Below, piece by piece: positions 3,917 through 39,146 of a stretch of DNA of 64,000 nucleotides. The stretch comes from a virus. Within the stretch, counting starts at the first letter, position 1, and every line of letters begins with the position of its first letter. The stretch spans positions 1 to 64,000 of the IMG/VR virus record IMGVR_UViG_3300020056_002227; one strand, written 5' to 3'. Both the position numbers and the translations under genes were made by a program. Below the pieces are notes generated by a model that saw only the letters and a program-made list of their open reading frames with translations, searched no databases and was not told where the DNA came from.

Positions 3917-4072
3917 TCATTTTGTGTCATAATAAATGCATGTATATGTATGACGACCTTCGGTCTCACTACATACCATGCAGCGCTTCTTTGGATCTTT
4001 GTAATCAAACTGTTTATGGTGTTTTTCTTCCCATACAGTTCGATCAGTTAATTTCTTTTCATCTTTAGTCAC
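3917..4072 (-). CDS. Small protein with two Cys pairs (51 aa), GTG start
   Basis: The frame starts at GTG 4072, overlapping the last 8 nt of SHMT, and ends with a TGA that overlaps the upstream ATG candidate of the cytochrome gene, so the three are tightly packed. The protein is charged and has C-M-V-C at residues 31-34 and a single Cys ten residues later (H-T-Y-T-C-I-Y-Y), suggesting partial metal binding. No Shine-Dalgarno is evident, as expected for a coupled start. Function not recognised. Confidence 0.55.
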   Translation of the reverse strand: MTKDEKKLTDRTVWEEKHHKQFDYKDPKKRCMVCSETEGRHTYTCIYYDTK

Positions 4073-5210
4073 TTAAATACTGCACGATCTTTTTGGCCAA
4101 ATGTGCAAACCAAATCTCATCGTGCCCTCTAGTTGTCTCTGCGGCAGTGCCGATTCTTATACCAGATGTTTCCATGAATGGTCGTGGATCATTTGGTACA
4201 CCGTTCTTATTTACAGTAATTCCTCTGCTCTCGAGCTTATCTGCTGCCTCTCTACCAGAATATTTACTCTTACTCAAATCAAGCAATAGTATATGACTAT
4301 CGGTGCCATCAGTTAAAAGGTTAAATCCCCCATCTCTGAATACACCAGCCATTGCCTGGGCATTCTTAATAACTTGGGCTCCGTATTTTTCGAAGTCAAG
4401 GGTGGACGCCTCTACAAATGCTTGTGCTTTTGCAGCAATGATATTCATCAAAGGACCACCTTGTGTGCCAGGGAATACAGCACTATTGATTTTCTTTGTA
4501 TAATTCGAATCATTCCACAGGATGATTCCACCACGAGGTCCCCGCAGCGTTTTGTGTGTTGTCGAGGTCACAACATCAGCCCATTCAATTGGATTGTCGT
4601 AAACACCCGCTGCAATCAGACCAGAATAATGTGCCATATCTACCATCAATAGAGCACCTACTTGATCAGCAATGAATCTAAATGTCTCCCAATCAATCTG
4701 ACGAGGATAAGCAGAAGCACCGGCAATAATTAATCTTGGCCTATAGTTATATGCCAATTTCATGACTTCATCGTAATCAATATATCCGTTATGATCGACA
4801 CCATACGTTACAGCATCATAAATCTTACCAGACATATTGACCGGTGCACCATGGGAAAGGTGTCCACCAGACGCAAGGTCCATTCCTAGAATTCTGTCAC
4901 CAGGTCTCAGAAATGCTTGAAAGACAGCTGCATTTGCATTTGCACCAGAGTGAGGTTGAACATTGGCGTATTGACACCCATAAAGAGATTTGAGCTGTTC
5001 AATTGCGAAGGTCTCAATCTCATCCATATGATCACAGCCATTATAATAGCGACGACCAGGATATCCTTCTGCATATTTGTTTGTAAAGACAGAACCACAC
5101 AATGCCATTACTTCGTCACTTGCAAAATTCTCGCTTGCAATCAATTCTACTGTTGTCTGTTGGCGTTTCAGTTCTCTTTGCCAGATGCGGTCAATTTCAG
5201 GGTGCAACAA
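4065..5210 (-). CDS. glyA: Serine hydroxymethyltransferase
   Basis: 381 residues, near family length (about 410-430, shortened at the C-terminus). Interconverts serine + THF and glycine + 5,10-methylene-THF using PLP. Visible motifs: E-L-I-A-S-E-N at 22-28, Y-A-E-G-Y-P-G-R-R-Y-Y at 46-56, V-D-M-A-H-Y-S-G at 190-197 and the PLP lysine in T-S-T-T-H-K-T-L-R-G-P-R at about K220. The start is TTG at 5210, placed 8 nt after AGGAG; no ATG fits. It lies between ligase and the cytochrome gene. It would recharge THF for ThyX (13196) and also make glycine, the substrate of the ALAS at 8086. Confidence 0.95.
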   Translation of the reverse strand: MLHPEIDRIWQRELKRQQTTVELIASENFASDEVMALCGSVFTNKYAEGYPGRRYYNGCDHMDEIETFAIEQLKSLYGCQYANVQPHSGANANAAVFQAFLRPGDRILGMDLASGGHLSHGAPVNMSGKIYDAVTYGVDHNGYIDYDEVMKLAYNYRPRLIIAGASAYPRQIDWETFRFIADQVGALLMVDMAHYSGLIAAGVYDNPIEWADVVTSTTHKTLRGPRGGIILWNDSNYTKKINSAVFPGTQGGPLMNIIAAKAQAFVEASTLDFEKYGAQVIKNAQAMAGVFRDGGFNLLTDGTDSHILLLDLSKSKYSGREAADKLESRGITVNKNGVPNDPRPFMETSGIRIGTAAETTRGHDEIWFAHLAKKIVQYLSD

Positions 5211-5224
5211 AATATTTTCTCCTA

Positions 5225-7429: not shown

Positions 7430-7672
7430 TCAAGTGTTTTTTGCATTATCAAGAATTTTACCCCATATGTATTCGGCCTCTGGAAATTCGACCATCTCAT
7501 CGACTTGCATATCAATATAGTCTAATTCGTCTAATGCAGCTGTCGTGACTTCGAGTTTCCACATATCATGGATTGCTCTTACAAATGCAGCATTATTGAA
7601 TGCCTGAGGCCCGAACTCTTTGAGAAAGTCCTCAAGCCGACTATATTCTTGTCTATCCTTTTTCTGGGGCAT
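7430..7672 (-). CDS. Conserved hypothetical protein (80 aa)
   Basis: ATG 7672 behind GGAGA, overlapping the end of the DUF454 gene by 20 nt. Acidic: contains F-G-P-Q-A-F-N-N-A-A-F-V-R-A-I-H and L-D-Y-I-D-M-Q-V-D-E-M-V-E-F-P-E. Helical, soluble, no motif recognised. Part of the primase-to-DUF454 operon. Confidence 0.7.
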   Translation of the reverse strand: MPQKKDRQEYSRLEDFLKEFGPQAFNNAAFVRAIHDMWKLEVTTAALDELDYIDMQVDEMVEFPEAEYIWGKILDNAKNT

Positions 7673-8099
7673 TTTTTATTTCTCCTTTCAACCAACCGAT
7701 ACGCTTACCGAGGTGTACTCGTCTGTCATATTCTTCTATAGAGCCTGGGTATCTCCAAGCCCAAACTAGCCAGAAGAGCATGAATAAACCAATGCTAACG
7801 GTAGCAATGGGTTTCAATTGGAGATAGAGAATCCAAACAAAACTAATCGTACAACATACAAGCATAACATACTTTGCTTTTGTTGGATAGACCCTCTTAT
7901 TCGTCCAATTCTGCACATATGGTCCAAAGGTTGGGTGTTCCCACACCCACTTTTCTAATCTAGGTGAACTCTTACTGAAACACCACAATGCTAGAAGAAG
8001 GAATGATGTTGTAGGAATGCCAGGTACAATTGCTCCGATGTAAGCCATACCTACTGATGCCAATCCCCCTGCTCTCCACAAATTTCTACGAATGTTCAT
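7653..8099 (-). CDS. DUF454 (YbaN-like) inner-membrane protein
   Basis: 148 residues. Matches the DUF454 pattern: R-A-G-G-L-A-S-V-G near the start, [16 protein letters not shown] at 22-37, [10 protein letters not shown] and [10 protein letters not shown], and further membrane helices around 75-115. The family is widespread in Proteobacteria with no established biochemical function. ATG 8099 overlaps the end of ALAS by 14 nt, with GAGG upstream, so the two are coupled. That placement suggests, but does not show, a role linked to tetrapyrroles. Confidence 0.85.
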
Positions 8100-9285
8100 C
8101 AAATACTTTCCTCAATGCTGTTACCAAATCATGCATCATACCGTCATCATGTAATGGTGTTGGTGTTATTCTTAATCGTTCTGTACCCACATCTACCGTG
8201 GGATAATTAATTGGTTGAATGTATAAACTATATTTATCTAGTAGTTCATCGCTTATGACCTTACATTTTTTAGCATCACCGACCATGACTGGTACAATGT
8301 GAGTACAGGCTGCATCATGTACCATGAGACCAGCGTCAAGTATCATCTGCTTGAGTGTGGTTGCTCGCTCTTGATGTTTCTCCCTTAACTCATTATGATC
8401 TTTTAAGTAGCGTATTGATGCGATGGCTCCTGCACACACGACAGGTGATGTTGATGTGGTGAAGATGAAGCCGGATGCGATTGATCGAATTGCATCAAGA
8501 ACAATACTATCACCAGCAATGTAACCACCGTGACAACCAAACGCTTTTCCAAGTGTTCCATTGATTATATCTACCCTCTTTTCTCCTATTTTCTCACAGT
8601 ATCCTGCCCCGGTATTACCGTACAGTCCTACTGCGTGTACCTCATCGATATATGTAATTGCACCATATTTTTCTGCAAGATCACATATTTCTTTAATTGG
8701 GGCTACATCCCCGTCCATACTATAAACACTTTCAAATACAATACAAGGTGTTTGGCCATCCAGTTGAGATGTTTGTAGTGCCAATTCTAGTTCTGCCATA
8801 TCATTGTGTTGCCAAATCTGCTTCGAAGCACCACTGTGTCGAATGCCTTGAATCATACTAGCATGATTCTTCGAATCACTGAGATATATCAAATTTGGTA
8901 TGATTTGGGCTAGAGCTACCAGAGACCATTCATTTGCAACATATGCAGAAGTGAATAGAACAGCGCTCTCTTTCTGGTGTAAAAGCGCCAGCTCTTTCTC
9001 TAGTGTTACGTGGAAATGAGATGTGCCACCAATGTTTCGTGTACCACCCGATCCAGCACCTGTCTTATCAAGGGCTGTGTGCATCGCATCAATTACAAAT
9101 TGATTTTGACCCATATTGAGGTAATCATTCGAACACCAATTTACTATATTCTTAGGTGCGTATTTTCCGTACCATGTGGCTCTTGGAAATTCACCTCGTG
9201 TTCTTACGATGTCGTTGAAAATTCTATATTTACCTTGATCCTTTAGATCGGTAATTACCTTCTCAAACGCCGTCTTGTTTATCAT
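8086..9285 (-). CDS. hemA: 5-aminolevulinate synthase (C4 pathway)
   Basis: 399 residues, the length of alphaproteobacterial ALAS. Condenses glycine and succinyl-CoA to 5-aminolevulinate, the first step of heme synthesis. Seen: R21, [11 protein letters not shown] at 49-59, [13 protein letters not shown] at 76-88, D-S-K-N-H-A-S-M with H141, Y-I-D-E-V-H-A-V-G with D214 and H217, G-T-L-G-K-A-F-G with the PLP lysine K247, and R-L-R-I-T-P-T-P. These positions match the R. capsulatus enzyme almost one to one, and separate it from KBL/BioF relatives. ATG 9285 was chosen over an earlier frame start because it gives the normal N-terminus; it overlaps the previous gene by 23 nt. Apparently intact. Confidence 0.95.
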
Positions 9286-9643
9286 CAACCTTGTCCCAAA
9301 TATTATCGGCTGTGAACCGATATGCTCCAATACATTTGTATCGAGTCCAGTTGTCAATTAAACTCAAAAGATACTCGTTTTCTGTCTCATACAAATAATA
9401 TATATGGCCAACCTTTGGTACAAAATTATACCGAGCACGATAAACCATCTCAGTTTGTTGGGCCAACTCTACCAACTCTTCGTATTCACGATTTAGTTGA
9501 TTCAGTCTCTCTTCGAAATATTTACTAGCATTTAGACCACGTTCACTTCGAAAGAGGTCAGTGTCCGGTAATTGAATGGCCGGAGCACTGACATTCGACC
9601 CATAAGGTAAAAGACCTGGAGCACTAGGCAGCGTATGCTTCAT
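9263..9643 (-). CDS. DUF2452-like protein
   Basis: About 126 residues. Matches the DUF2452 layout: an N-terminal [13 protein letters not shown], a long coiled helix ([14 protein letters not shown]), then [21 protein letters not shown] and [12 protein letters not shown]. Family function unknown; members occur in bacteria and phages. Start ambiguous: ATG 9643 overlaps the end of nrdB by 20 nt, a further ATG at 9673 is possible. Lies between nrdB and ALAS. Confidence 0.75.
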
Positions 9644-10826
9644 CCCAGCTACCCGACAGACCTGCCACTTCATATTCAGTTACACGATTCTCAAAGAAGT
9701 TGGTATGGTCTGCTCCATTCAGAACCCATTCCAACCAGGGAAGTGGATTGTCTTTGACTCGGAAATTTGGTTTCATACCAAGTTGAATCAAACGACGGTC
9801 GGTAATATATCGAATATACTGCTTGACTTCTGATTTCTCGAGCCCCTCAATCTCACCCATCTTATATGCAAGATCGATGAACTTGTCTTCAAGCTTTACG
9901 ATCTGACGAGACATTTCATAAATCTCTGCCTTGAATTCATCGTCTACAATACGAGGATGTTCTTGGCAGAACACCTTAAACAGTTTGGAATTGCCTTCTA
10001 CATGCATGCTCTCATCACGAATCGACCATTCTACAACCTTACCCATGCCTTTCATCTTACCGAACCGTTGGAAATTCAACAGCATCACGAAAGATGCAAA
10101 GAGGGCAACACCTTCATTGAATACAGATTTGGCAAGTGCCTGACCGAGTCCTCTCATTGTATTTACGTCCGACTCCATCATGTATTCAATCTTGTCGGCC
10201 ATCTCTTTGTATTCAAGGAATGCGTGATATTCTTCAGCAGACAGACCAAGGGTCTCATTCAGTAGAGCATATGCACGTTGGTGAATACCTTCTCGTGCAG
10301 CAAAGGAAGATAGCATGTTACGGACTTCGTTGTTCTTAAACTTAGGAATGAACTGATCAAAATAATTCTGTCCTACAGCAACATCTGACTGAGTAAACAG
10401 TCTCAGGATATTCGTGATATATTCTTTTTCTACCGGAGTAATCTTGCCACCTTTCCAATCGGACACATCTTCAGATAGATCGAGCTCATCTTCAATCCAG
10501 TGTGCCTTCTCATGTCTAGTTGTGATATCGATTGCCCATGGATAATGAAAAGGCTTATAAGTTTCAGAGAATTCGAGTAGACCACCAGAAGACTTTTTAA
10601 TCAAGGTATCTGCGATTGCCATTAGATCATTATAGGTACCAATGTGCTTATCATCGATAAAGATTTGAGGTACGGATCTTACGTTTGGATACTTTTGGTA
10701 AAACGACATGCGTTGCTCTTCATCATCGAGTTTGATCTCGGTAAATGTATAATCATGCTGCCGGAACCATGCCTTTGCTTTTTCACAAAAAGGGCAGAAA
10801 GACTTAGAGTAAATTACTACTTGCAT
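9624..10826 (-). CDS. nrdB: Ribonucleotide reductase small subunit with N-terminal glutaredoxin
   Basis: 400 residues. Residues 1-78 are a glutaredoxin (S-K-S-F-C-P-F-C with C11/C14, S-V-P-Q-I-F-I-D-D at 51-59). From about 85 on is a class Ia-type R2: L-S-E-D-V-S-D-W (first Asp ligand), R-E-G-I-H-Q-R-A-Y (Glu, His and the Tyr expected to carry the radical), F-N-E-G-V-A-L-F (Glu), I-R-D-E-S-M-H (Glu, His), and a C-terminus rich in acidic and aromatic residues that binds R1. So the metal and radical residues are intact. The fusion places the reductant on the enzyme itself. Between AOX and DUF2452 in the operon. Confidence 0.95.
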   Translation of the reverse strand: MQVVIYSKSFCPFCEKAKAWFRQHDYTFTEIKLDDEEQRMSFYQKYPNVRSVPQIFIDDKHIGTYNDLMAIADTLIKKSSGGLLEFSETYKPFHYPWAIDITTRHEKAHWIEDELDLSEDVSDWKGGKITPVEKEYITNILRLFTQSDVAVGQNYFDQFIPKFKNNEVRNMLSSFAAREGIHQRAYALLNETLGLSAEEYHAFLEYKEMADKIEYMMESDVNTMRGLGQALAKSVFNEGVALFASFVMLLNFQRFGKMKGMGKVVEWSIRDESMHVEGNSKLFKVFCQEHPRIVDDEFKAEIYEMSRQIVKLEDKFIDLAYKMGEIEGLEKSEVKQYIRYITDRRLIQLGMKPNFRVKDNPLPWLEWVLNGADHTNFFENRVTEYEVAGLSGSWDEAYAA

Positions 10827-10841: not shown

Positions 10842-11414
10842 TTATTGAGATAATTTAAAATTTGTTTGCGAATGGTGCTTTTCGTCCTGCTGGACTCTAT
10901 ACACCATGTCGTATAGTCTTGCATCGGGTTTCAGGTCATAATAATCAATTGCAAGTTTCGGTGCGGGTGTATTATCTATCTCGCCATGAGATATCATTTT
11001 CAAATAGCTCTCATAACTACGTACTGCTTCTTCTTCGAAATAATGTACCATGAGATGTGCCGTCTTAGGGAAGAAGATATAAAACACAAGATAATAATGC
11101 CAGAATATAAACTGAGCAACGAGAATCAATGCTCTTTCAAACCAATTCGGCTGTGCGATCTCAATGAAGAACATGAGATGCATTCTTTCGTTCTCGGCCT
11201 CTGCCAAGAGTTCTCGTATTTGTGGACCATATCCAGTCTTTAATTTTCTAAGACTGCGCAGATGAATCCACATGCCGGCAACCATACCAGGTACTCCGGC
11301 AATTGTTTCTAATACTACTGCTCTGTGACCATACCTCTTTGCGAAGAATGTATCAGCAAAGAATCGAAACATCTTTGTCTGACCATAGGCAAAGAAATGG
11401 CTTATCCTTGACAT
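10842..11414 (-). CDS. aox: Alternative oxidase (di-iron ubiquinol oxidase)
   Basis: 190 residues from ATG 11414 (GTG 11423 possible). The AOX signature is complete: V-L-E-T-I-A-G-V-P-G-M-V at about 35-46 (first Glu), A-E-N-E-R-M-H-L around 74-80 (Glu and His), Y-F-E-E-E-A-V around 126-131, and Q-D-E-K-H-H around 177-181 (Glu, His). Two hydrophobic amphipathic helices anchor it to the inner membrane. It would oxidise ubiquinol and reduce O2 to water without heme or proton pumping. Shorter N-terminus than mitochondrial AOX. It overlaps the 3' end of nrdA by 13 nt and precedes nrdB. Cyanophages carry the related PTOX; this copy looks closer to AOX. Confidence 0.92.
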   Translation of the reverse strand: MSRISHFFAYGQTKMFRFFADTFFAKRYGHRAVVLETIAGVPGMVAGMWIHLRSLRKLKTGYGPQIRELLAEAENERMHLMFFIEIAQPNWFERALILVAQFIFWHYYLVFYIFFPKTAHLMVHYFEEEAVRSYESYLKMISHGEIDNTPAPKLAIDYYDLKPDARLYDMVYRVQQDEKHHSQTNFKLSQ

Positions 11415-13186
11415 GCAACGCACTCGTCTTGATTCTCTTCTTTACCGTTGGTAAAATTGACGGGTGCAACCAAAGAATCAAGTTTCTCTCTTTCCACCTT
11501 GGCAGATACGTTCTCAGCCTTATTAGATGTTTCGGTGCGAAGATAGTAGAGACCCTTACAACCCTGTTTCCAAGCCTCGAAATGAACCTTGTGTAGATAT
11601 GATTTAGGAGCACCAGCTGGAAAGAAAACATTCAGAGATTGACCTTGACACAGATGAGTCTGACGATCACCAGCAAGTTTAACCAACCACAACTGGTCGA
11701 GTTCAATTGCTGTCTTAAATACTTCTTTTACATGGTCAGAAAGAAAATCAAGATGTTGGACCGAACCACCAGATGTAATGATCGAAGACCAAATTTCATC
11801 TGTGTTCTTACCGAGACGTTCTAGTTCTTTCTCTAGGTAGGGGTTCTTATTCAGGTGAGATCCAACACGAGTACGAGAGGTGAACGCATTTGCTTTCCAA
11901 GGTTCGATGCTGGGAGATGTATCTACGATCATAGAAGAATTAGCATTGGGTGCAATTGCTAGCATGTGAGCATTCCGGCGACCAGTACCTTTCATATCTG
12001 GTGCTTCACCCTTCTTCTTACCCATATCCAGCGTGGCCTTAACGGCTCTTTCCTTTATCAAAGAGAAAATTTCTTCATTCTTTTCTATTGCTGCATCACT
12101 GCCAAAAGGAATCATGTGTTTTTGGAAATAAGAGTGCAGGCCCATTGCTCCAAGACCGAGAGATCTTTCACGTTCTGCACTATATCGAGCACGAGAAATT
12201 TCGTCTCCAGCATGATCGATAAAGAACTGTAATACATTATCGAGGTAGATAATTAGATCTTCAATCATGGTGGTATCTTTCCAGTCATCGTATTTTTCTA
12301 CATTCACGGATGACAGACAGCATACAGCAGTACGTTCTTCGTTGGTGACAAGATGAATTTCATTACACAAATTCGAACCACGAATTTTCAGGCCCATATC
12401 TTGTTGTGTTTGAGGAAGAGCACGATTTGCTGTATCAATGAAATTCAGATAAGGTTCACCTGTTCGATATCGAGTCTCCAATAGATGTTCCCACAATTTA
12501 CGAGCCTTCATGGTATCTCTTACTGTACCGTCATCTGGATCAATTAGATCCCAATCCGCACCAGACTGAACTGCCTCCATAAACTTATCGGTGATATTTA
12601 CGGCGTGATGTAGGTTCAAATTTTTACGATTTACATCTCCAGTAGGAATCCGCATATTCACGAACTCGATGATATCTGGATGATCACAGTCAATATACGC
12701 CGCATAAGAGCCCTTTCTTGTGCGTCCCTGGCGGTACGCTACCATATCCGCATCAACGGTATGTAAGAACGGCATCGGACCAGGAGCCTTTTTGGATACT
12801 GCTCTTACGTCAGACCAGTGGCCACCAACACCCCCACCTTTAACCGACAACCATCTCAGCTCTGCACTATGGTCGATCAACCCTTCTAGGGAATCGGGAA
12901 CATATGTCAAGAAACACGAGATAGGTAATGCCTTTACTGGTTCACCCTTAACAGGTGCATTAGAAAGGACTGGAGAGGCAAACATGAACCAACCCTTAGA
13001 AACATAATCATAGATTCGTTGCGCTAACTTCAAATCACCATAAGAATATGCCACTGCAGCCCTTGCAAATGCTTGCTGGGGACTCTTCTCATCTTCACGA
13101 CAATAATAATCCTTTAACAGTTTCGATGATTGCTCTGACAGTAACTTGTTTCTCTTGTTATCGATTTGGATTCCAAGGTGATCCAT
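11402..13186 (-). CDS. nrdA: Ribonucleotide reductase large subunit, class I
   Basis: 594 residues, short for NrdA because the N-terminal ATP-cone is absent, so dATP overall-activity control is probably missing. Active-site features: L-P-I-S-C-F-L near 88-94, G-G-G-V-G-G-H-W, N-L-C-N-E-I (radical Cys region), A-V-C-C-L-S-S-V-N, P-N-A-N-S-S-M-I and the C-terminal redox pair C-V-A-C-Q-G. It reduces ribonucleotides with NrdB (9624). ThyX lies directly upstream. The 3' end overlaps AOX. Confidence 0.95.
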   Translation of the reverse strand: MDHLGIQIDNKRNKLLSEQSSKLLKDYYCREDEKSPQQAFARAAVAYSYGDLKLAQRIYDYVSKGWFMFASPVLSNAPVKGEPVKALPISCFLTYVPDSLEGLIDHSAELRWLSVKGGGVGGHWSDVRAVSKKAPGPMPFLHTVDADMVAYRQGRTRKGSYAAYIDCDHPDIIEFVNMRIPTGDVNRKNLNLHHAVNITDKFMEAVQSGADWDLIDPDDGTVRDTMKARKLWEHLLETRYRTGEPYLNFIDTANRALPQTQQDMGLKIRGSNLCNEIHLVTNEERTAVCCLSSVNVEKYDDWKDTTMIEDLIIYLDNVLQFFIDHAGDEISRARYSAERERSLGLGAMGLHSYFQKHMIPFGSDAAIEKNEEIFSLIKERAVKATLDMGKKKGEAPDMKGTGRRNAHMLAIAPNANSSMIVDTSPSIEPWKANAFTSRTRVGSHLNKNPYLEKELERLGKNTDEIWSSIITSGGSVQHLDFLSDHVKEVFKTAIELDQLWLVKLAGDRQTHLCQGQSLNVFFPAGAPKSYLHKVHFEAWKQGCKGLYYLRTETSNKAENVSAKVEREKLDSLVAPVNFTNGKEENQDECVACQG

Positions 13187-13195: not shown

Positions 13196-13864
13196 TTATT
13201 CGGTTACGTAATCTTTCGCAAGAGGAAAGATATGGTGAATTGCCGCGGCACAAGCACGCGCAAGTTCCATGTGTTCTTTTTGAGTACCATTTGCACTTCG
13301 GAGTTCAATATAGTGAATCCAAGAGCGAATGGTTCCATTGACATAAAGACGAGAGACAGTCAGTCCTTCAGGTAATACTGCCCGGGCTTGTTCTTTAGCG
13401 ATACCATTATCGATAGCCCATTTATATAGTTCTTTAACCTTGTGAATGAGTTCCATCTGTCTCATGTTCCATTTTTCATACAGTCGAGGATCATTAGTAG
13501 CAATAGAATTCTGTCGATTCTTGGGGTCTTGTAATCTTGCCTCTCTAGTTACAAATTCCAAATCTTCAGTGGGGTCTGCATAACGTTGACTGAATTCTTG
13601 GAAACTAAAACTACGATGCCTTATTAGCTGTCTTGCAATATCTCTTGTAGTTTCTACCTCGAGACACGCACTAGCCATTTCAAATGGCGACCAGTGTTTG
13701 TGTTTTGCAAGATACTTTAAAAGCTTTTCACTTGTTTCAGTATTGTATTGATTTGCAGGGTTACTGACTCGAGCACAGAAAGCAATCAAGTCTTGTATAT
13801 CGGATATCCCTTCAGAATCCATTAATCTAGTTGGTTGACTGTAACTAATCAACTTCACATTCAT
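13196..13864 (-). CDS. thyX: Flavin-dependent thymidylate synthase
   Basis: 222 residues with the ThyX motif R-H-R-S-F-S-F-Q-E-F-S-Q-R-Y at 82-95. It methylates dUMP using FAD, NADPH and methylene-THF and releases THF rather than dihydrofolate, so it needs SHMT (4065) but no dihydrofolate reductase; none was seen here. Active as a tetramer in the cytoplasm. Placed between primase and nrdA, 3 nt from the primase stop. Confidence 0.95.
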   Translation of the reverse strand: MNVKLISYSQPTRLMDSEGISDIQDLIAFCARVSNPANQYNTETSEKLLKYLAKHKHWSPFEMASACLEVETTRDIARQLIRHRSFSFQEFSQRYADPTEDLEFVTREARLQDPKNRQNSIATNDPRLYEKWNMRQMELIHKVKELYKWAIDNGIAKEQARAVLPEGLTVSRLYVNGTIRSWIHYIELRSANGTQKEHMELARACAAAIHHIFPLAKDYVTE

Positions 13865-21431: not shown

Positions 21432-21622
21432 CTAAATTTCTTTGCCAGTTGGCCTACAGAAATAGTTTCAAAATCACCGAATTCGTTGGTGATCTTAAAC
21501 TCAATGCTTCTATTAGACGGTATCATTTCAATCTTGTAGTTCTTACCGTCCTTACCTTGGACCATGCCTTTCTTACCAATACTTGGTGCTTTTGCCTCGG
21601 TAAATTCTCCAAAACTTTTCAT
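21428..21622 (-). CDS. Small protein with T4 internal-protein-like N-terminus (64 aa)
   Basis: Starts M-K-S-F-G-E-F-T-E-A, closely like the capsid-targeting signal of T4 internal proteins (M-K-T-Y-Q-E-F-I-A-E-A), which gp21 protease cleaves after the Glu. The rest is a small beta domain (Y-K-I-E-M-I-P-S-N-R-S-I-E-F). May be a packaged internal head protein; inference. Start/stop overlaps with both neighbours. Confidence 0.65.
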   Translation of the reverse strand: MKSFGEFTEAKAPSIGKKGMVQGKDGKNYKIEMIPSNRSIEFKITNEFGDFETISVGQLAKKFR

Positions 21623-22995
21623 GTTTCCTTCCTATTCTTTTTCTGTTTAGCCAATATCTTCTTTTTGGTAGGTTCGTGTAGCATCATTGCTGGTTGAAAA
21701 CCCCGACCATCTTTCAGATCTTTGAATTCTTTAAATTTCTTTACTTTGCTATGCGGTGTATCTTTCTTGAGCTTTTCAGTTGCTTCAGGTGTACCTTCGA
21801 AGCCGGCACCATATTCTTCTTTTGCAAAACCTCGATAATTCAAAAGGTGTTTGGGCATTTTACCGGCTCTAACCATATCTTTGAATACCTTATCAAGTAC
21901 CCTTACATCAAGACCGTGAATCTTTGCTGTCTTTACCAGATTTCTCTCGGCATTGTGAGGGTCTTTCTTGCGAAGGTCTAAGAATGTTCGGACTGCCCTT
22001 TTGTAAATTGGCTTATTGACAGTTCTATCAAGCCACCGAAAAAGATCTGGCATCATAGATTTTAATATAGAGTCATCATCACCGAAAACTCTTTCATCTA
22101 ATTTACCACCAGCATCTACAAATGCTGCAACGGCCATTTGTTGTCTTTTCTTCTCGTCTTTACCTTTGAACTGAGGAGCATCTGATTTTTTGAAATCATC
22201 AATCCATGCACCTAGACCATCGGACACTTTTAACTTTTCTTCTAAAAAATCTTGGCCATTTTCTGTTACTGGGTTTTCATCGGCAAGTAGAGGATCTTGC
22301 TCTTCTTTGATGCCACGAGCCTGTTTTTCACTAGAGATCCATTTCTGTGCAGTTGCATTGTCAACAGCCTTATCGGTAAATTTTCTAGCATCTCTATAAG
22401 CACGAACAGTTTCTTTCTCGTAATCTTTACCCACGGAATTATCTACAACCAAGAAATTGGGTTTACCAAACATGGATTGGAATGCGCCAATATTCTGTTG
22501 TACTGCTTTCCAATAAGCAATAACCTCTTTGTCTGGCAGTGATCGAGGTCTTTGTCTGTTTCTTTCTAGGGCAGTCTCCATGTCTGTATTCACAAAGATC
22601 ATAGCGACATCATAACCCAGACTCTTCAATTTTTTGGATTGATTTAAAATTTTCTGAGGATCTTTACCAGTACCGTCAATTACCAGACCAAGACGACCTT
22701 TGATATATCGCTCTTGTTTCTTTGCAGTCAGGGCTTTTGCTTTGCCACGAATCTCTTGGCCCTTTGTGGAGAAAATTGTCTCTGGGTCCATAACAAGGCC
22801 TGCTTTTTGCATTGCAGACTCGAAAGCGTCATCCGAGTTTACAACCTTATAGCCCATAGAGGTGAGGCCAGTTTTTCCTACGATAAAGGATTTACCAGAA
22901 CCGGGGCCACCTGCTAAGAAAATGGCCTTAAAGATTGCTGGATCGTTAATACCTTCGTCAAGCGGAGATTCTAAGAATTGGGAAAAGTTTTTCAT
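21619..22995 (-). CDS. P-loop kinase-like protein with possible capsid-targeting N-terminus
   Basis: 458 residues. N-terminus M-K-N-F-S-Q-F-L-E-S resembles a T4 capsid-targeting signal. Walker A L-A-G-G-P-G-S-G-K-S-F at 28-37, S-D-D-A-F-E near 55, G-R-L-G-L-V-I-D-G-T-G near 103-113 and a lid R-N-R-Q-R-P-R-S-L: the pattern of zeta-toxin/nucleoside-kinase-like P-loop enzymes. The second half (about 250-460) has helical repeats and R-G-F-A-K-E-E-Y. Substrate unknown. Late gene by position. Confidence 0.75.
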   Translation of the reverse strand: MKNFSQFLESPLDEGINDPAIFKAIFLAGGPGSGKSFIVGKTGLTSMGYKVVNSDDAFESAMQKAGLVMDPETIFSTKGQEIRGKAKALTAKKQERYIKGRLGLVIDGTGKDPQKILNQSKKLKSLGYDVAMIFVNTDMETALERNRQRPRSLPDKEVIAYWKAVQQNIGAFQSMFGKPNFLVVDNSVGKDYEKETVRAYRDARKFTDKAVDNATAQKWISSEKQARGIKEEQDPLLADENPVTENGQDFLEEKLKVSDGLGAWIDDFKKSDAPQFKGKDEKKRQQMAVAAFVDAGGKLDERVFGDDDSILKSMMPDLFRWLDRTVNKPIYKRAVRTFLDLRKKDPHNAERNLVKTAKIHGLDVRVLDKVFKDMVRAGKMPKHLLNYRGFAKEEYGAGFEGTPEATEKLKKDTPHSKVKKFKEFKDLKDGRGFQPAMMLHEPTKKKILAKQKKNRKET

Positions 22996-31999: not shown

Positions 32000-33442
32000 T
32001 TATCTCAATTGAACGGAATCGTCAAATACACTGCGGCGCTTTTTACCTCTCAAGGTCGAACCAATATCAGTCTTATCGAATACGGGAGTATCATCATCTC
32101 GTCGACTTGATCCACCCGACTGACCACCACCATTACCATCAATGTTGATATTCTGTTGCGCGCTTTCTTCTAGGTCATAAATTTTCATTTTAGAACGATC
32201 AATACCAACAAGGAATCTGCGATAATAACTCAAATCACCCCATCGATTCTTGAGTTGTTTTAGCATCACCTGACCGAGCTCATCAAGGTGCTCAGAAGTT
32301 ATGATTCCAAGAATGCAATCAGCAGTGTGAGTGATACCCATAGACTCAGAGGTATTGGTGAGATCCACATCAGAGTTGCCGTAGCCGTCACGATTAAACT
32401 GAGAACTAGTAACAACGGCACAATTAAATTCCATAGCGAGACCACGTATTTCCTCCGCAATTGATTTGACAAGTGTGTATGAATTGGCAGCTGCAGCGCC
32501 ACGGACACGAGAGGATGCACAGATGTTGAGGTAATCAACAAACACCACGTCAGGTACAAAGCCCTTCTTCATTCGTAATTCATTTAGAAGATGCCGAAAA
32601 TGACCAGCATGTGCCGATCCAGTCGGATATTCCTTAATCACCAGTTTACCCGGTGTCTTGGTCTTATATCGACCCATTCTTTTTTCATAAACGTCTCGTG
32701 GACACTCACCAAGTTCATCTAGTGTGATATCCATGATATTGGCATCAATACGTCTACCAATTTCTTCTTCAGCCATTTCCATGGTGATATACAACACATT
32801 CTTGCCATACATCAAATGGTTGGCTGCAAAGTGACATTTCAAAAGAGATTTACCACCACCAGTAGTGGCAAGTAGTACAGTCATTGATTTCCGAGGTAGC
32901 CCACCCTTGGTGATCTTGTTCAAAATATCGATATCAAACGGAATTCTTTCTTCCTTTCGATGATAGTATTCATATCGATCTTCAAACTCTTCAAGGAAGT
33001 CGTGACCAACACTAGAATCAAAGTTGATTCCTAGCGAATCAGATAAGATTTTTGGTATCGATCCCTTATCGTTTTCTTTATCTTGGCCATCAAGAATCAG
33101 AATCGCCTTACGGATTGAATTGTATAGGTCTTTATCTTGGCAAAATTTCTCTGTTTCAGCAATCAAAAATTCATTGCTGGTATCCTTGTCGACCTCTAAT
33201 TGATCGACAGCTTGCATTACATTCGTATAAGTGTCTTCGTTTAAATCTTTTCTTTTATCGATGCTGAGTTTAAGAGCCTCCACTGAGGGAGGCTCCTTGT
33301 ATTGCTCAACATAATCAACAAACGTTGAAAAGATTTTTTGAAGAGAGATTTCGTCGAAATAATCTTCCTTAATATAGGGATATACCTTACGGTAGTAGTC
33401 CCCATTAAGAATCAAATTCGACAGTATCGTCTTCTCTAACAT
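32000..33442 (-). CDS. 41: Replicative DNA helicase, gp41
   Basis: 480 residues. RecA/DnaB fold: Walker A A-T-T-G-G-G-K-S-L near 190-198, Walker B D-V-V-F-V-D-Y-L-N, then V-V-T-S-S-Q-F-N-R and the arginine-finger region L-K-N-R-W-G. Unwinds the fork as a hexamer with primase gp61. ATG 33442 is preferred because GAGG lies 6 nt upstream. Overlaps the 3' end of uvsX. Confidence 0.94.
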   Translation of the reverse strand: MLEKTILSNLILNGDYYRKVYPYIKEDYFDEISLQKIFSTFVDYVEQYKEPPSVEALKLSIDKRKDLNEDTYTNVMQAVDQLEVDKDTSNEFLIAETEKFCQDKDLYNSIRKAILILDGQDKENDKGSIPKILSDSLGINFDSSVGHDFLEEFEDRYEYYHRKEERIPFDIDILNKITKGGLPRKSMTVLLATTGGGKSLLKCHFAANHLMYGKNVLYITMEMAEEEIGRRIDANIMDITLDELGECPRDVYEKRMGRYKTKTPGKLVIKEYPTGSAHAGHFRHLLNELRMKKGFVPDVVFVDYLNICASSRVRGAAAANSYTLVKSIAEEIRGLAMEFNCAVVTSSQFNRDGYGNSDVDLTNTSESMGITHTADCILGIITSEHLDELGQVMLKQLKNRWGDLSYYRRFLVGIDRSKMKIYDLEESAQQNINIDGNGGGQSGGSSRRDDDTPVFDKTDIGSTLRGKKRRSVFDDSVQLR

Positions 33443-34469
33443 CCTCAACCTCGTCAGCCATTAGTAGTTTAAATTTACGTTCAACGAATTCATTGAATCG
33501 GGGATCCGCAACCAGACCTTCGAAAAATTCATCATCAGTCTCAATGTCTTTAGCGCGTTTCTTAGGTTCAATGATTTCACCAGTATCCATATCTACCTTA
33601 TTATACCATCCTTGATTGGCCTTTGTCAAGTGCCCAGATTCAAGTGCGAGATCAAAAAGGGAAGACCATTTCTGAATGCCGGTATCGTATAGTACCTTGA
33701 ATGGAAGTTTTGATTTCTCTTTTACATAGCGAGATTTTTCAATGTTGATCGTAAATTTAAATCCAGCAAGGTCGGTACCATCTTTCTCTTGTGCCTTTGA
33801 GATAATAAAAATCTGATTGGCAGAATAGTAGATGCCCGTACCACCGGATACGATATTTTTCGGGAACAAGCCAATCTCTTTATAGGTATGATTGATTGCA
33901 ACCAATGGAATGTCTTTTCCGGTAAGTTTGGGTGTGACGATGCGGAAGAGTGATTTCAATTGTTTTGCCCGAGACATATCGGCAACTGATTTCTCATTTT
34001 CAGCATCTTCGACCTCTTTACGAGAAGCAAGGTTACCGACAGAGTCGATCATAATAAAAACTTTATCACCCTTATCAATCTCGTTCAATCGCTTAGTCAA
34101 ATCAAATTTGAGTTGTTCAACGTCTTCGATTGGGATGTGTAGAACACGATTTGTATCGATGCCGATTCCTTCTAGGTATTCAGGTGTAATACCATATTCA
34201 GAATCATACAGCATCGCAATGCCGTCATCGTATTTCTTTAGATATGCTTTCATGCAATAGAGTGACAAAAGAGTTTTGAAACTCTTTGATTCACCAGCAA
34301 TCACGGTCAAACCAGGGATCAGACCACCCTTGAGTGAACCACTGAAAGCAATATTCACAATTGGCAACTCTGTCTGGATAGGATCTTTCTCATTGAAGAA
34401 TGTGCTCTTCGACAAGATAGATGAACCCTTGACAGAACCTGCCTTGAGCATTTTATCAAGCAGACTCAT
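33405..34469 (-). CDS. uvsX: RecA-like recombinase UvsX
   Basis: 354 residues. Walker A G-E-S-K-S-F-K-T at 59-66, Walker B V-F-I-M-I-D-S-V-G-N, and S-G-G-T-G-I-Y-Y in the loop 2 region. Forms the presynaptic filament for recombination-dependent replication with UvsY (51986) and gp32 (34804). Confidence 0.95.
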   Translation of the reverse strand: MSLLDKMLKAGSVKGSSILSKSTFFNEKDPIQTELPIVNIAFSGSLKGGLIPGLTVIAGESKSFKTLLSLYCMKAYLKKYDDGIAMLYDSEYGITPEYLEGIGIDTNRVLHIPIEDVEQLKFDLTKRLNEIDKGDKVFIMIDSVGNLASRKEVEDAENEKSVADMSRAKQLKSLFRIVTPKLTGKDIPLVAINHTYKEIGLFPKNIVSGGTGIYYSANQIFIISKAQEKDGTDLAGFKFTINIEKSRYVKEKSKLPFKVLYDTGIQKWSSLFDLALESGHLTKANQGWYNKVDMDTGEIIEPKKRAKDIETDDEFFEGLVADPRFNEFVERKFKLLMADEVEDVREDDTVEFDS

Positions 34470-34470
34470 A

Positions 34471-34749
34471 TTATTCTCCCTTCAGAATTTGATATAGCTT
34501 ATCTGCAAAGGCATCAAGTTTATCATAACGGTCAGGCCAATAGATATAATCTTTCTCGGGATTAGCCTTAAGATTATTCAGCAGAGGCATGACGGCATCA
34601 TAGATAAGTTGAGCTTTGGCTGCATTCGATTCAGCAGATGCACTGGTTGATTCAGCGACTGCTTTTGCCTCACGAACTACATCGAGTTCATCAGCATCGA
34701 CTGCGGTAAAGCCAAAATCAAAATCAAGTATAGTTTCTTGTTTATCCAT
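34471..34749 (-). CDS. Conserved hypothetical protein (92 aa)
   Basis: One nt from uvsX. Starts M-D-K-Q-E-T-I-L-D-F-D-F-G-F-T-A-V-D and has a helical middle (A-K-A-V-A-E-S-T-S-A-S-A-E-S-N-A-A-K) and L-K-A-N-P-E-K-D-Y-I-Y-W-P-D-R. The same small protein is found beside uvsX in marine T4-like phages. Role unknown; probably accessory to recombination. Confidence 0.75.
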   Translation of the reverse strand: MDKQETILDFDFGFTAVDADELDVVREAKAVAESTSASAESNAAKAQLIYDAVMPLLNNLKANPEKDYIYWPDRYDKLDAFADKLYQILKGE

Positions 34750-34770
34750 ACGGATCTCCGTTATTGATGT

Positions 34771-34788
34771 GGGGGCCCGAAGACCCCC
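34771..34788 (-). terminator. GC-rich hairpin with UUCG-type loop downstream of gene 32
   Basis: On the minus strand GGGGGTC-TTCG-GGCCCCC-type sequence forms a 5-7 bp hairpin between the gp32 stop and the next gene. There is no T-tract after it, so it may stabilise the gp32 mRNA end or pause polymerase rather than terminate fully. Confidence 0.5.
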
Positions 34789-34803
34789 GACGAATTAGTT
34801 ATC

Positions 34804-35733
34804 TTATCCTCGTGCAAGTTCTTTAAAGATAGACAGGTCGTCGTCATCATCAGTAACAGAGTTATCTTCAGAAACAGCAGGAGCTTCTGCAAAGGTAGGC
34901 TCTGGAGCCACTTGAGCAAAAGATTTGCCTAGATCAAGATCATCTGATTCTTCCATGGGTGAAGCCGCAACCGGTTCATCTGCGGTGAGATCAAGTACTC
35001 GGTAGAGCTTGGTCTTCAATTCAGCATATGATTTGAAGTTCTTAGGATCAATCACTTCATTAAGAGAGTGCTCTTGAGTCCATACGCTTTCCATTTCAGA
35101 GTCGTCATCAAAGAGAGGTGCCGGAGCATCAAACTCAGATTTGTCATAGTTGGGGTAACCTTCGAACTGTCGAATCTTCAGTCGGAAGTTTGCACCCTCC
35201 CATAGATCAAAAGGATTTACGGGATCTTCATCTTCGAAGCTAGGATTCATCAAATCATTCAGCTTGTCGAAAATCTTCTTGCCGAACTGATAAAGGAATA
35301 CCTTGCCTTCGTTTTCGGGATTCGCAGAATCCTTTACAACGTAGATGTTGGAGATATACTTGAGTCGACGCTTCTGCTTACGAGCCTGTTCTTTGTCAGC
35401 CTCGACACCAGAATTCCAGAGTTTAGAGTTGAACTCAGATACTGGATCATCTTGGTTGAGAGTGGTCAGAGAGTTTTCGATATACCAAAGACCAGTGGGG
35501 CCTTGGAAACCGTGATCCCAAATTCGCACGAACGGCATTTCTTCACCGGAAGGTGCGGGCAGGAAACGAATGATTGCGAAACCATTGCCAGCCTTGTCCT
35601 TCGTAGGCTTCCAAAATTTGCCTTCGTTTGGATCGGAGTAAGTCTTAGATGAGATTTTTTCAAGCTGCTGATTGAGCTTGTCGAGTGATTTACTGCGGTT
35701 CTTTTTGAGCGCTGCAAAATCTGTAGGTGCCAT
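34804..35733 (-). CDS. 32: Single-stranded DNA-binding protein gp32
   Basis: 309 residues from ATG 35733, which has AAGGAG 7 nt upstream. N-terminal basic helix (L-K-K-N-R-S-K-S-L-D-K-L), an OB-fold core (R-F-L-P-A-P, W-Y-I-E-N-S-L-T-T) and an acidic C-terminal tail (V-T-D-D-D-D-D-L-S-I-F-K) that binds partner proteins. No obvious zinc Cys triad, unlike T4 gp32. Coats ssDNA at the fork. Reached by promoter 35860..35887 inside gene 59. Confidence 0.92.
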   Translation of the reverse strand: MAPTDFAALKKNRSKSLDKLNQQLEKISSKTYSDPNEGKFWKPTKDKAGNGFAIIRFLPAPSGEEMPFVRIWDHGFQGPTGLWYIENSLTTLNQDDPVSEFNSKLWNSGVEADKEQARKQKRRLKYISNIYVVKDSANPENEGKVFLYQFGKKIFDKLNDLMNPSFEDEDPVNPFDLWEGANFRLKIRQFEGYPNYDKSEFDAPAPLFDDDSEMESVWTQEHSLNEVIDPKNFKSYAELKTKLYRVLDLTADEPVAASPMEESDDLDLGKSFAQVAPEPTFAEAPAVSEDNSVTDDDDDLSIFKELARG

Positions 35734-35777
35734 ATTAGTTTCTCCTTGTATAGCGTTATATGTGCGATGTATTATCA

Positions 35778-36380
35778 TCAACCAAAATGTTCGCGGACAA
35801 TGTCTTTGAACTTCTTTTCATCAATTACTAGAAAGGGTCTGTACTTTCTAGCAGTTCTTATTATATCACGCGAGACTATTTTGTCAACCAATTTTTTATC
35901 CCAATAATCAAAAATATTTGCAAAGTGAACCAGAAGAGTAAAAGTCTCTAATGAGATCTGCTTTCGCAAATATGTAGTCATCACAATTGGATGTTGGCCA
36001 TCGTGTGATACAAAGTTTGCCTGATAACTATCATCAAGCAATTTTAGATCGGATTTGAACGTATAGGAAAGTGATTCCTGCTTCTTTTTCCAATCTGTAT
36101 ACACCCGTTCACCTTCGTGTTCGAGTATATCTTTCACCCAAATGTTAGGTTTGACTAACATATTGGATAGAATTCTATTTATATAGTCTTCTTTCTGTGC
36201 TAATTTCGCAAAGAAAAATGCATCATTTCGGGCTCTAAAGGAATCCATAGATGCTCTGACCTTACCGTTATACTTATGGTAGTCATACCCATCTGTGGTA
36301 AAATGTTTCTTTAAAGCAAGATATTTTACATACGCCTCAAATGAGGTCTCATTCACATAAGTCGGTGATGTTGGGCTCAT
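35778..36380 (-). CDS. 59: Helicase loader gp59
   Basis: 200 residues, all-helical, with F-E-A-Y-V-K-Y-L-A-L-K-K-H-F, Y-D-Y-H-K-Y-N-G-K-V-R-A and F-F-F-A-K-L-A-Q-K, the T4 gp59 pattern. It loads gp41 onto gp32-covered forks. Its start overlaps gene 33 by 32 nt. Two possible promoters for gene 32 lie within it. Confidence 0.85.
   Translation of the reverse strand: MSPTSPTYVNETSFEAYVKYLALKKHFTTDGYDYHKYNGKVRASMDSFRARNDAFFFAKLAQKEDYINRILSNMLVKPNIWVKDILEHEGERVYTDWKKKQESLSYTFKSDLKLLDDSYQANFVSHDGQHPIVMTTYLRKQISLETFTLLVHFANIFDYWDKKLVDKIVSRDIIRTARKYRPFLVIDEKKFKDIVREHFG
35860..35887 (-). promoter_or_regulatory. Sigma70-type promoter for gene 32, inside gene 59
   Basis: Minus strand TTGACA (35887..35882), 16 bp, TATAAT (35865..35860), extended -10 TG. 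About 120 nt before the gp32 ATG. T4 gene 32 likewise has its own promoters within gene 59. Confidence 0.75.
36176..36183 (-). promoter_or_regulatory. Possible late promoter inside gene 59
   Basis: TATAAATA on the minus strand. T4 gene 32 is also transcribed late, so a late start here would make sense, but a single 8-base word inside coding sequence can be chance. Confidence 0.4.
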
Positions 36381-36588
36381 CTCGTTTCACCATTTTCAAA
36401 TCTACTGCTTCAGTTCGTACTTTCTCTTTTAAGATAGAGGATTTCTTAACGATATCTGCGATTGACTCAATCTCTAGGTTGTTCTTTTCTGCGTAATGAA
36501 CTAGTGCATCAATGTAAGGTACACCATCAGCAATCATCTTAGATATTTCGTGGTGAATTTTTTCGGGCGTCATTTTCACGACAGACAT
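36349..36588 (-). CDS. 33: Late transcription coactivator gp33-like
   Basis: 79 residues. Contains M-T-P-E-K-I-H-H-E-I-S-K-M-I, P-Y-I-D-A-L-V-H-Y-A-E-K-N and I-A-D-I-V-K-K-S-S, the pattern of the gp33 homologues of marine T4-like phages. gp33 bridges gp55-RNA polymerase and the sliding clamp at late promoters. ATG 36588 sits behind AGGAGG. Two promoters and a terminator lie just upstream. Confidence 0.8.
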   Translation of the reverse strand: MSVVKMTPEKIHHEISKMIADGVPYIDALVHYAEKNNLEIESIADIVKKSSILKEKVRTEAVDLKMVKRDEPNITDLCE

Positions 36589-36616
36589 CAAAACCTCCTA
36601 TAGTAAATGAATGATT

Positions 36617-36645: not shown

Positions 36646-36649
36646 CCAT

Positions 36650-36681: not shown

Positions 36682-36682
36682 C

Positions 36683-36711: not shown

Positions 36712-36717
36712 CCTATA

Positions 36718-36966: not shown

Positions 36967-36969
36967 TTT

Positions 36970-37194: not shown

Positions 37195-37254
37195 GGTTTC
37201 GGCTCCTTAAAATATATTTTGGGGGACTTGAGTGTGAAGAAAAGTAACATTTTA

Positions 37255-37292
37255 CCTCTTTTCACGGTAATATATATACCCGTTCTAAGAGG
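37255..37292 (-). promoter_or_regulatory. Leader hairpin before the 74-residue exported protein
   Basis: Minus RNA CCUCUU...AAGAGG (6 bp) with inner ACGG/CCGU (4 bp) and an A/U-rich loop, 60 nt before the ATG. It belongs to the 180-nt untranslated stretch between the two exported proteins; no promoter is clear there, so this may be an mRNA-processing or stabilising structure. Confidence 0.35.
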
Positions 37293-37348
37293 TTAGTTCA
37301 TATTTTTTTCATTTATTTTTCTCATATAATATATTCCCAGTAGGAATA

Positions 37349-37369
37349 ATGGGGGCATTGCACCCCCAT
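37349..37369 (-). terminator. GC hairpin after the 136-residue exported protein
   Basis: Minus RNA AUGGGGG-UGCAAUG-CCCCCAU region, 7-bp stem, starting 4 nt after the stop. Followed by UUAUUCC, so only a weak U-tract; probably partial termination or 3'-end protection of the heme oxygenase/bilin reductase transcript. Confidence 0.5.
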
Positions 37370-37373
37370 GAGT

Positions 37374-37784: not shown

Positions 37785-37816
37785 TTTAGATCTCCTTAAG
37801 TTAGTAGCTGCTACGG

Positions 37817-37839
37817 CATGCACCCCCTCGGGATGCATG
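37817..37839 (-). other. Hairpin between bilin reductase and exported protein
   Basis: CATGCA/TGCATG arms with extra CCC/GGG inside, 23 nt, in the 69-bp gap. No T-tract. It may mark a processing point between the two genes. Confidence 0.35.
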
Positions 37840-37853
37840 AATAGAAACTTCAT

Positions 37854-38597
37854 TTAAGGATTGGGATTGTAAAAAGTGCCTTGATCAACTGGATATAGCT
37901 TTACCTCTTCGAATAAAACGTCTTCTACATACTGCTTAATTTCTTCTTCACCCAATTTCATGGCCTTCAAAGAATTCCAGAGCTGTTGGTTCTTCTTTTG
38001 ATTGATACAGTATCTATTGTGACTTTCCATACGATCCTCGCCCAACCAAAATTGTTGGTGTTCAATCTGTTCAAGATAATAATGGATCAATCTTATTGCA
38101 GTATCACAAAACTGCTCTGTCTCTTCACCCTCACGAACGTTTCCTGCTGCAACCATATGTGGAGAGAAAATTTCTTTTGCCCATTCAGGCAATTCCCTTT
38201 CTGTTTTCCACTCCAAGTCTCTGGTCGCAAGACCAAATGTAGTAATGATGGGGTGTGTTTCGTCGGATACTGGAGAGAAATCGAAAAATGAACCGCTGAT
38301 CTTATTAGGTCCGGCCACAACATCCAATCCCAAGATCGGATAATGGAATGATGTGCCGGGAAAGATATTAATGTGCATCAACCAAAGTTTTGGTTTACCC
38401 TCAATAGGCTCAATGATTTTCAAGTGTGCCTTACGAACGGGGCCAGATTGCCAAAACAGATCTGTCCAACCTTCGAATTCGTGTATGTGTTTTTCATTAT
38501 CAAAGCGCTCCATGTGCTTATCAAATATCTCAATGATATCAGTAGACAGTTTGCGCAAACGATTCAGTAGGGGTGTGTCCATAATATATTCAGCCAT
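37854..38597 (-). CDS. pcyX: Ferredoxin-dependent bilin reductase, PcyX/PebS type
   Basis: 247 residues. Family features: F-W-Q-S-G-P-V-R-K-A-H-L at 48-59, H-I-N-I-F-P-G at 75-81, Y-P-I-L-G-L-D-V-V-A-G at 86-96, F-F-D-F-S-P-V-S at 104-111 with D106 where the family's essential proton-donating Asp lies, L-P-E-W-A near 140, and C-I-N-Q-K-K-N then Y-V-E-D-V-L-F toward the end. It reduces biliverdin with electrons from ferredoxin, probably to phycoerythrobilin by analogy with PcyX from uncultured oceanic phages; the product cannot be read from sequence alone. It starts 3 nt after heme oxygenase. Confidence 0.85.
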   Translation of the reverse strand: MAEYIMDTPLLNRLRKLSTDIIEIFDKHMERFDNEKHIHEFEGWTDLFWQSGPVRKAHLKIIEPIEGKPKLWLMHINIFPGTSFHYPILGLDVVAGPNKISGSFFDFSPVSDETHPIITTFGLATRDLEWKTERELPEWAKEIFSPHMVAAGNVREGEETEQFCDTAIRLIHYYLEQIEHQQFWLGEDRMESHNRYCINQKKNQQLWNSLKAMKLGEEEIKQYVEDVLFEEVKLYPVDQGTFYNPNP

Positions 38598-38600
38598 TAA

Positions 38601-39146
38601 TTACTCGTTATTAAATAGTGTGTCCAATTCTTCAAACAGTTTTGTTGCGTATTGAAAACAAATAATTGCTTCATCTACCATACCATCATAAAGCAATTCA
38701 CGAATGCCAGAGATTAACTCTCTCCTGTTTTCAAATTCGTACATGGTACCAGAACCAGGTACCCTCTTCTTAATTATCTGGCCACCGTGCATATCACCGA
38801 AGTGTCGTACATAAAGGTGTGCTAGGAGGTCGTCATTGTCCTCTAGTGAAAGGATATGGTCGATATATTCATCTACGGATCTGAGGTTTTCAGTGATCCA
38901 TGGTAGATTATACTCTTCTTCTAGTTCACATAAATCTGATAATATCTTATCTGCACGGAATACACCACGAAGATCCTGTGCCAGGTGAACTCTTTCTTCA
39001 AGGGTTTGATATATCTCATACTGCGACTTTAAATAGTATTGATACTCGACCGGAGAGATATCACCACTTATTAGTTTGCCAGCAAATTTGGATTGCTCTG
39101 CCATATCGTGGTGTTTTTGAGTTAATTCTTTTAGACTAGATGCCAT
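38601..39146 (-). CDS. ho: Heme oxygenase
   Basis: 181 residues from ATG 39146 (GAGGAG 4 nt upstream). Proximal heme ligand in K-H-H-D-M-A-E, probably H13; Y-L-K-S-Q-Y-E-I-Y at 38-46; distal-helix signature H-F-G-D-M-H-G-G-Q at 115-123. Cleaves heme to biliverdin, CO and Fe2+ with electrons from ferredoxin. Shorter than cyanobacterial HO1 (about 240) but complete in the conserved core. Directly coupled to the bilin reductase. The only promoter signal seen upstream is a late one. Confidence 0.92.
   Translation of the reverse strand: MASSLKELTQKHHDMAEQSKFAGKLISGDISPVEYQYYLKSQYEIYQTLEERVHLAQDLRGVFRADKILSDLCELEEEYNLPWITENLRSVDEYIDHILSLEDNDDLLAHLYVRHFGDMHGGQIIKKRVPGSGTMYEFENRRELISGIRELLYDGMVDEAIICFQYATKLFEELDTLFNNE

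Follow-up and report, generated by a model that had tools for sequence, protein, structure and literature searches.

The gene layout of a T4-like marine phage leads us to lean, on a modest balance of probability, towards a two-phase handling of tetrapyrroles in which 5-aminolevulinate synthase (ALAS) would act early and heme oxygenase (HO) with a ferredoxin-dependent bilin reductase (FDBR) would act late. The original prediction that haem is made early and broken down late is thus supported at the level of sequence, with HO-FDBR behind a late promoter motif and ALAS in a nucleotide-metabolism unit without one. The source record comprises 169,742 bp, of which bases 1-64000 form the window, the whole 64,000-nucleotide stretch analysed here (G+C 40.6%), and the phage was assigned as T4-like because of its gp32, gp59, uvsX, gp41, gp33, tail sheath, neck, prohead protease and scaffold genes. 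The six genes that had been predicted, encoding serine hydroxymethyltransferase (SHMT), ALAS, HO, FDBR, cytochrome c and an alternative oxidase (AOX), were all present where they had been placed, all on the minus strand (Table 1). Pairwise comparison with relatives gave dN/dS values of 0.02-0.15 where synonymous sites were not saturated, and pN/pS for HO was 0.11; the genes are therefore under purifying selection, and the pseudogene-like substitution that had been named as a sign against the prediction was not seen.

The minus-strand order in the window lineage runs primase-thyX-nrdA-AOX-nrdB-ALAS-DUF454, and further on glutaredoxin-ligase-SHMT-cytochrome c-nuclease. The position of AOX between nrdA and nrdB had been overlooked. 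In relatives AOX is missing or placed after ALAS and SHMT sometimes lies elsewhere, so both appear to be mobile within the locus. Elsewhere in the window, a TET-associated glycosyltransferase (PF20691; 61221-62447, plus strand) suggests DNA base hypermodification, and the product of 21619-22995 (minus strand), in which a zeta-toxin-like/AAA kinase domain was recognised (PF06414, 42 bits), is likely a phage kinase.

Table 1. Positions of the genes and the promoter motif discussed in the text, in window coordinates.
Feature	Coordinates	Strand	Evidence or remark
Cytochrome c, small, periplasmic-type	3600..3920	-	PF00034 22.5 bits (cut-off 21.3)
SHMT (serine hydroxymethyltransferase)	4065..5210	-	PF00464 485 bits; NF000586 559 bits
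DUF454/YbaN membrane protein	7653..8102	-	PF04304 111 bits
ALAS (5-aminolevulinate synthase)	8086..9357	-	TIGR01821 566 bits; PDB ALAS matches and alignment
Glutaredoxin-NrdB fusion (RNR small subunit)	9624..10826	-	NF009398 681 bits (cut-off 649)
AOX, alternative oxidase (di-iron quinol oxidase)	10842..11423	-	PF01786 215 bits; PDB TAO 3vv9
NrdA (RNR large subunit)	11402..13186	-	NF006577 794 bits
ThyX	13196..13864	-	TIGR02170 158 bits
uvsX; gp32	33405..34469; 34804..35781 (within 33405..36591)	-	PHROGs; downstream of HO-FDBR
gp59; gp33 late coactivator	35778..36380; 36349..36591	-	PHROGs; PF16805; downstream of HO-FDBR
FDBR, ferredoxin-dependent bilin reductase, lysine type	37854..38597	-	PF05996 67 bits; 5owg alignment
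HO (heme oxygenase)	38601..39209	-	PF01126 70 bits; PDB HO alignments
Palindromic TATTTATATAAATA, T4-type late promoter motif	39234..39247	both	Faces HO (-) and esterase/lipase gene (+)
Esterase/lipase, divergent from HO	39277..40074	+	phrog_21992

Late promoter motifs and the haem genes

T4 and KVP40 use TATAAATA as their late promoter (PMC2984593). In the phage genome this motif occurred 20 times over both strands, with 16 of the 20 copies no more than 100 nt upstream of a same-strand gene (4.8% expected by chance, P about 4e-18), and the genes behind it included those for a UvsW-like helicase, baseplate tube cap, baseplate wedge, tail-fibre assembly, neck, tail sheath, head protease and scaffold. 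A gene for the gp33 late coactivator (PF16805) is also present. Among relatives, exact TATAAATA was found in 35 of 40 distinct regions upstream of HO, where a Markov model expects 2%, and it was conserved across 50-100% HO identity, with the esterase/lipase side of the motif present in 13 of 14 relatives. Within 250 nt upstream of ALAS it was found in 0 of 63 (Fisher test of HO versus ALAS counts, P about 2e-22), and within 160 nt upstream of the neighbouring genes in 0/56 for AOX, 0/45 for FDBR, 0/43 for gp59, 0/38 for nrdB and 1/37 for nrdA; upstream of thyX the count was 0/36. Because IMG/VR relatives are non-independent samples, counts by protein clusters at 90% identity were used, and these gave the motif for 20 of 25 HO, 0 of 49 ALAS and 0 of 24 AOX clusters. 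From its sequence and placement, TATAAATA before HO is predicted to be a T4-type late promoter, such matches not being proof of transcription.

The genes that follow HO-FDBR count against a late reading, as gp33-gp59-gp32 are replication genes, and gp59 and gp32 lay downstream of the pair in 73 of 74 relatives. Early expression of HO-FDBR, as read from its place ahead of gp33-gp59-gp32-uvsX, was overturned by the promoter scan. That the late promoter is merely ancestral to gp33-gp59-gp32 was also considered and rejected, since no TATAAATA was found around these genes in six cyanophages without HO. HO may nevertheless be transcribed earlier from another promoter despite the late motif, and read-through into ALAS may come from late promoters farther up its strand block (17983, 25047, 31993). 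The HO-FDBR pair of pelagiphage Mosig, immediately ahead of neck and terminase genes, likewise fits late expression.

In four of the five HO upstream regions without the motif, HO is immediately preceded by a permuted tmRNA; two of these four (L115, L155) have the late motif just ahead of the tmRNA. These permuted (two-piece type) tmRNAs (L115:3314-3689, L155:4869-5206, L157:3083-3452, L168:4899-5222) carry tags such as ANDDVYDMEYALAA*. The HO leader of the window (39150-39232, minus strand) keeps GTGGCCCCAGCCCTGCTACCGAACAGGGGCAC, which resembles the 3' end of those tmRNAs and is possibly a relic; as an RNA element the leader gave no Rfam match and a fold z-score of 0.02.

In a second group of phages (L394, L396-L398, L401) an Hsp20-like gene is followed by ClpS and then by HO with a PcyX-type (Asp55) FDBR, the ClpS being confirmed by Pfam in L397. 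The motif was present within 200 nt of HO in 0 of these 5, so the split is not universal and the claim is for the clade of the window.

The enzymes and the DUF454 partner of ALAS

The phage ALAS, which has a probable start at ATG 9285, passes the TIGR01821 equivalog model (cut-off 339 bits; Table 1), and its scores of 309 bits against the bioF model and 306 bits against the KBL-type model are both under the cut-offs of those models. ALAS was likewise preferred over KBL, BioF and SPT in a PDB search (ALAS structures 454-355 bits, KBL 206 bits), and the PLP lysine Lys271 is invariant in the alignment (GTLGKAFG). The family model and the kept PLP-lysine identify the gene as a 5-aminolevulinate synthase, with production of 5-ALA predicted. 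RcALAS His342 is replaced by Lys (GDPVH aligns to GDAKK) and the C-terminal Cys (Cys400) is absent, so the haem-feedback residues are missing, as in many vAlaS. One 15-kb contig (G008, the L010 record) holds two different ALAS copies, 73% and 70% identical to that of the window and about 12 kb apart.

A DUF454 gene, missed in the original prediction, overlaps the 3' end of ALAS. It lies downstream of ALAS on the same strand, often overlapping, at 72 of 80 viral ALAS loci, and the pair also occurs on a contig (L014/L146) that otherwise has almost nothing in common with the phage of the window. In bacterial assemblies DUF454 was beside ALAS at only 5 of 69 ALAS loci, and three of these five (L299, L304, L358; Rhodobacteraceae bacterium Water_Bin34) also have phage-like genes (primase, thyX or nrd); because of these T4-like genes, the Water_Bin34 contigs appear to be of phage origin and to have been binned along with a bacterium. 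DUF454 is a conserved partner of phage ALAS. The Rhodobacter-like bin published as an exception among phage ALASs may be Water_Bin34. Structure prediction for DUF454 was moderate (pLDDT 73) and a PDB fold search gave no result. Heme oxygenase and DUF454 are among the domains enriched near T11SS genes in one survey (PMC12282271), and DUF454 is up under iron starvation in Avibacterium (PMC7970244). A general bacterial link between DUF454 and HO was unsupported, because no DUF454 was found in the stretches around HO of 9 gammaproteobacterial genomes.

The functional start of HO is probably ATG 39146, and alignment to solved HOs showed that the proximal His (TQKHHDMAE) and distal GDMHGG motifs are kept. 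FDBR follows HO directly at 99 of 99 loci and belongs to the FDBR superfamily (PF05996 cut-off 31 bits), with PcyX 5owg as best PDB match (142 bits). Intact active-site motifs had been predicted for SHMT, ALAS, HO and FDBR, which held for ALAS and HO and failed in part for FDBR: His75 and Asp92 (PcyA His88 and Asp105) were invariant in 53 of 53 distinct sequences, and Lys60 stands where PcyA has Glu76 and PcyX Asp55. This column held Lys in 51 of 53 distinct relatives and at four further loci, and Asp in 5owg, Mosig, L120 and all five ClpS-linked phages. Assignment as a PEB-forming PcyX was rejected on the lysine in place of Asp55, and as a PCB-forming PcyA on the lysine in place of Glu76 together with a PcyA model score (NF002760) of 95 bits, under the cut-off of 206. 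Glu76 is specific to PcyA and required for 18-vinyl reduction (PMC10151467), and a freshwater FDBR reported without Asp55 makes PCB (PMC11480375). The alignments mark the lysine-type FDBR as a fixed subgroup, whose product cannot be taken to be PCB or PEB. A crude motif scan for a phage ferredoxin as electron donor gave antisense chance matches only.

AOX, SHMT and the association of the genes

The di-iron Glu/His ligand motifs of AOX (LET/NERMH/EEEAV/DEKHH) are kept and were conserved in 18 phage AOXs. AOX matched at least 217 stretches in IMG/VR, and in INPHARED (E≤1e-5) its only match was phage C48C1 (60%), where the protein is annotated 'hypothetical protein'. Cyanophage PTOX (plastoquinol terminal oxidase) is, like AOX, a phage-borne di-iron quinol oxidase. 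Although known (PMC2984593), cyanophage PTOX was not matched by the window AOX in that INPHARED search, and the searchable literature on AOX in phages yielded only unrelated papers or PTOX. Marine T4-like phages commonly carry AOX, mostly without haem genes, and AOX is a widespread marine phage gene that is hardly mentioned in the searchable literature.

The records compared are fragments recruited by similarity to the window, and the co-occurrence figures are therefore tallies, not unbiased rates. Within a first set of 50 records AOX was present in 30, and 21 of these 30 lacked ALAS, HO and SHMT. Across both sets, 13 records of 60 kb or longer carried ALAS; HO was present in 9 of them, SHMT in 5, AOX in 3 and all four genes in 2, these two being the window phage and one close relative (G000 and G003, the latter with nrdA 90% identical); no complete relative among the records examined held the full set. 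AOX, ALAS and HO were together in these two and in G053, 14 records of 60 kb or longer had AOX, 3 of them with HO, and most HO-bearing records lacked AOX. The tallies favour a looser association of ALAS with HO, an incomplete pairing, and speak against a programme joining AOX to HO; of the co-occurrence that the original prediction called for, the ALAS-HO part stood in looser form, and neither the AOX-HO part nor, beyond two records, the set of four did.

These figures bear on the full programme first proposed, in which late HO would strip haem, haem-copper oxidases would lose function and quinol oxidation would pass to AOX. AOX needs no haem, its motifs are intact and three records hold AOX, ALAS and HO, all of which suits that programme; the 11 records of 60 kb or longer that have AOX and neither HO nor ALAS, including the complete 156-kb phage C48C1, and the absence of AOX from most HO-bearing records make it highly improbable, and leave compensation for haem loss by AOX unsupported. 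In the window lineage AOX would instead be a separate redox gene sharing the nrd unit, for quinol oxidation during nucleotide synthesis.

SHMT had been proposed as the glycine source for ALAS, a claim that proved weak. T4-like Aeromonas phages also have SHMT, and the ALAS query gave no ALAS-like match in any Aeromonas phage. ThyX uses methylene-THF and is encoded in the same unit, and SHMT is therefore more likely a folate/dTMP gene feeding ThyX. Cytochrome c is a weak profile match with CxxCH and a signal-like N-terminus, and among the loci compared had full-length matches only in the closest relatives (79-80% in L129 and L006).

The same tallies can be read as independent auxiliary genes gathered in one genome with no shared programme, ALAS serving respiration, HO-FDBR iron recovery or pigment chemistry, AOX redox balance and SHMT thymidylate, and the timing difference being a by-product of insertion sites. 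Many records carry AOX, ALAS, HO or SHMT as the sole member of the four, SHMT is found in Aeromonas phages, and AOX and SHMT shift place within the locus; conservation of the HO promoter over the whole range of HO identity and the 9 of 13 pairing of ALAS with HO argue the other way, and we consider independence somewhat unlikely.

Relation to known systems and proposed sequence of events

The original prediction knew of no report of the whole gene set. Its core of ALAS, HO and FDBR has in fact been published, and AOX and SHMT are not mentioned in that paper (Wegner et al. 2024, PMC11480375), which describes ALAS in phages, either by itself or accompanied by HO and FDBR in complete or broken cassettes, tested freshwater phage enzymes and pointed out the missing haem-feedback residues. 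The vAlaS+vHemO+PcyA/X cassette of marine and freshwater phages has the same three enzymes as the window, mostly in marine T4-like phages, with a similar 'broken cassette' arrangement and ALAS without haem-feedback residues (PMC11480375). It differs in that its assayed FDBR makes PCB and marine FDBRs are placed in PcyX, whereas the window FDBR has Lys; AOX, SHMT and DUF454 are not mentioned there, nor is promoter timing in the sections consulted (PMC11480375). Pelagiphage Mosig EXVC030M resembles the window in having FDBR directly after HO, its pair lying among late structural genes, but differs in its Asp55 (PcyX) type, its 39%/36% identity and its location, and was not found by ALAS or AOX queries of the phage collection. 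Cyanophage ho1/pebS/pcyA are likewise phage-borne haem-to-bilin steps; cyanophage HO differs, being about 29% identical or less, with other neighbours and a phycobilisome context, and TATAAATA was found within 120 nt upstream of HO in none of four cyanophages checked. In cyanophage P-RSM6 (L370:1498-2196) HO lies between nrdA and nrdB, the slot taken by AOX in the window. The searchable literature yielded no paper on the promoter split, DUF454, AOX or SHMT in phages of this kind. The enzyme set is mostly known, and the conserved early/late split between haem making and haem breaking was not found in that literature.

In the two-phase handling that we favour, the feedback-free ALAS would act alongside the nucleotide-synthesis genes before late transcription, keeping haem supply up during nucleotide synthesis while respiration must go on. 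Activation of the late sigma/clamp system would then bring transcription of HO and FDBR, together with the virion genes, from the T4-type late promoter, on a transcript predicted to start just downstream of TATTTATAAATA. HO would convert haem to biliverdin, Fe2+ and CO, and FDBR would convert biliverdin to a reduced bilin; SHMT would most likely feed ThyX, and AOX would stand apart. Expression times and enzyme activities in the window phage are inferred from sequence, and the benefit may be iron release, an antioxidant bilin or a pigment signal. A more specific version, a timed switch from feedback-free 5-ALA synthesis with a dedicated DUF454 partner to late HO and a lysine-type FDBR whose product would be neither PCB nor PEB, is one to which we give rather little credence.

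Late HO could also serve chiefly to supply iron to 2OG-Fe(II) oxygenases or other iron proteins with bilin as a by-product, a purpose compatible with two-phase handling that we regard as unlikely. It would suit Mosig, where several 2OG-Fe(II) oxygenase genes precede HO-FDBR within one strand block, and the window, which has one such gene (51434-51976), yet it leaves unexplained both the FDBR behind HO at every one of the 99 loci and the purifying selection on FDBR. An iron role is mentioned by Wegner et al. (PMC11480375).

The co-occurrence of ALAS with HO/FDBR in phages has been called "still enigmatic" (PMC11480375), the puzzle being why one phage carries a haem-precursor gene together with haem-destroying genes. 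As a late promoter is predicted on the breaking half and none was found on the making half, separation in time would be a concrete, testable answer, and directly testable enzyme questions arise for both the lysine-type bilin reductase and the DUF454 partner.
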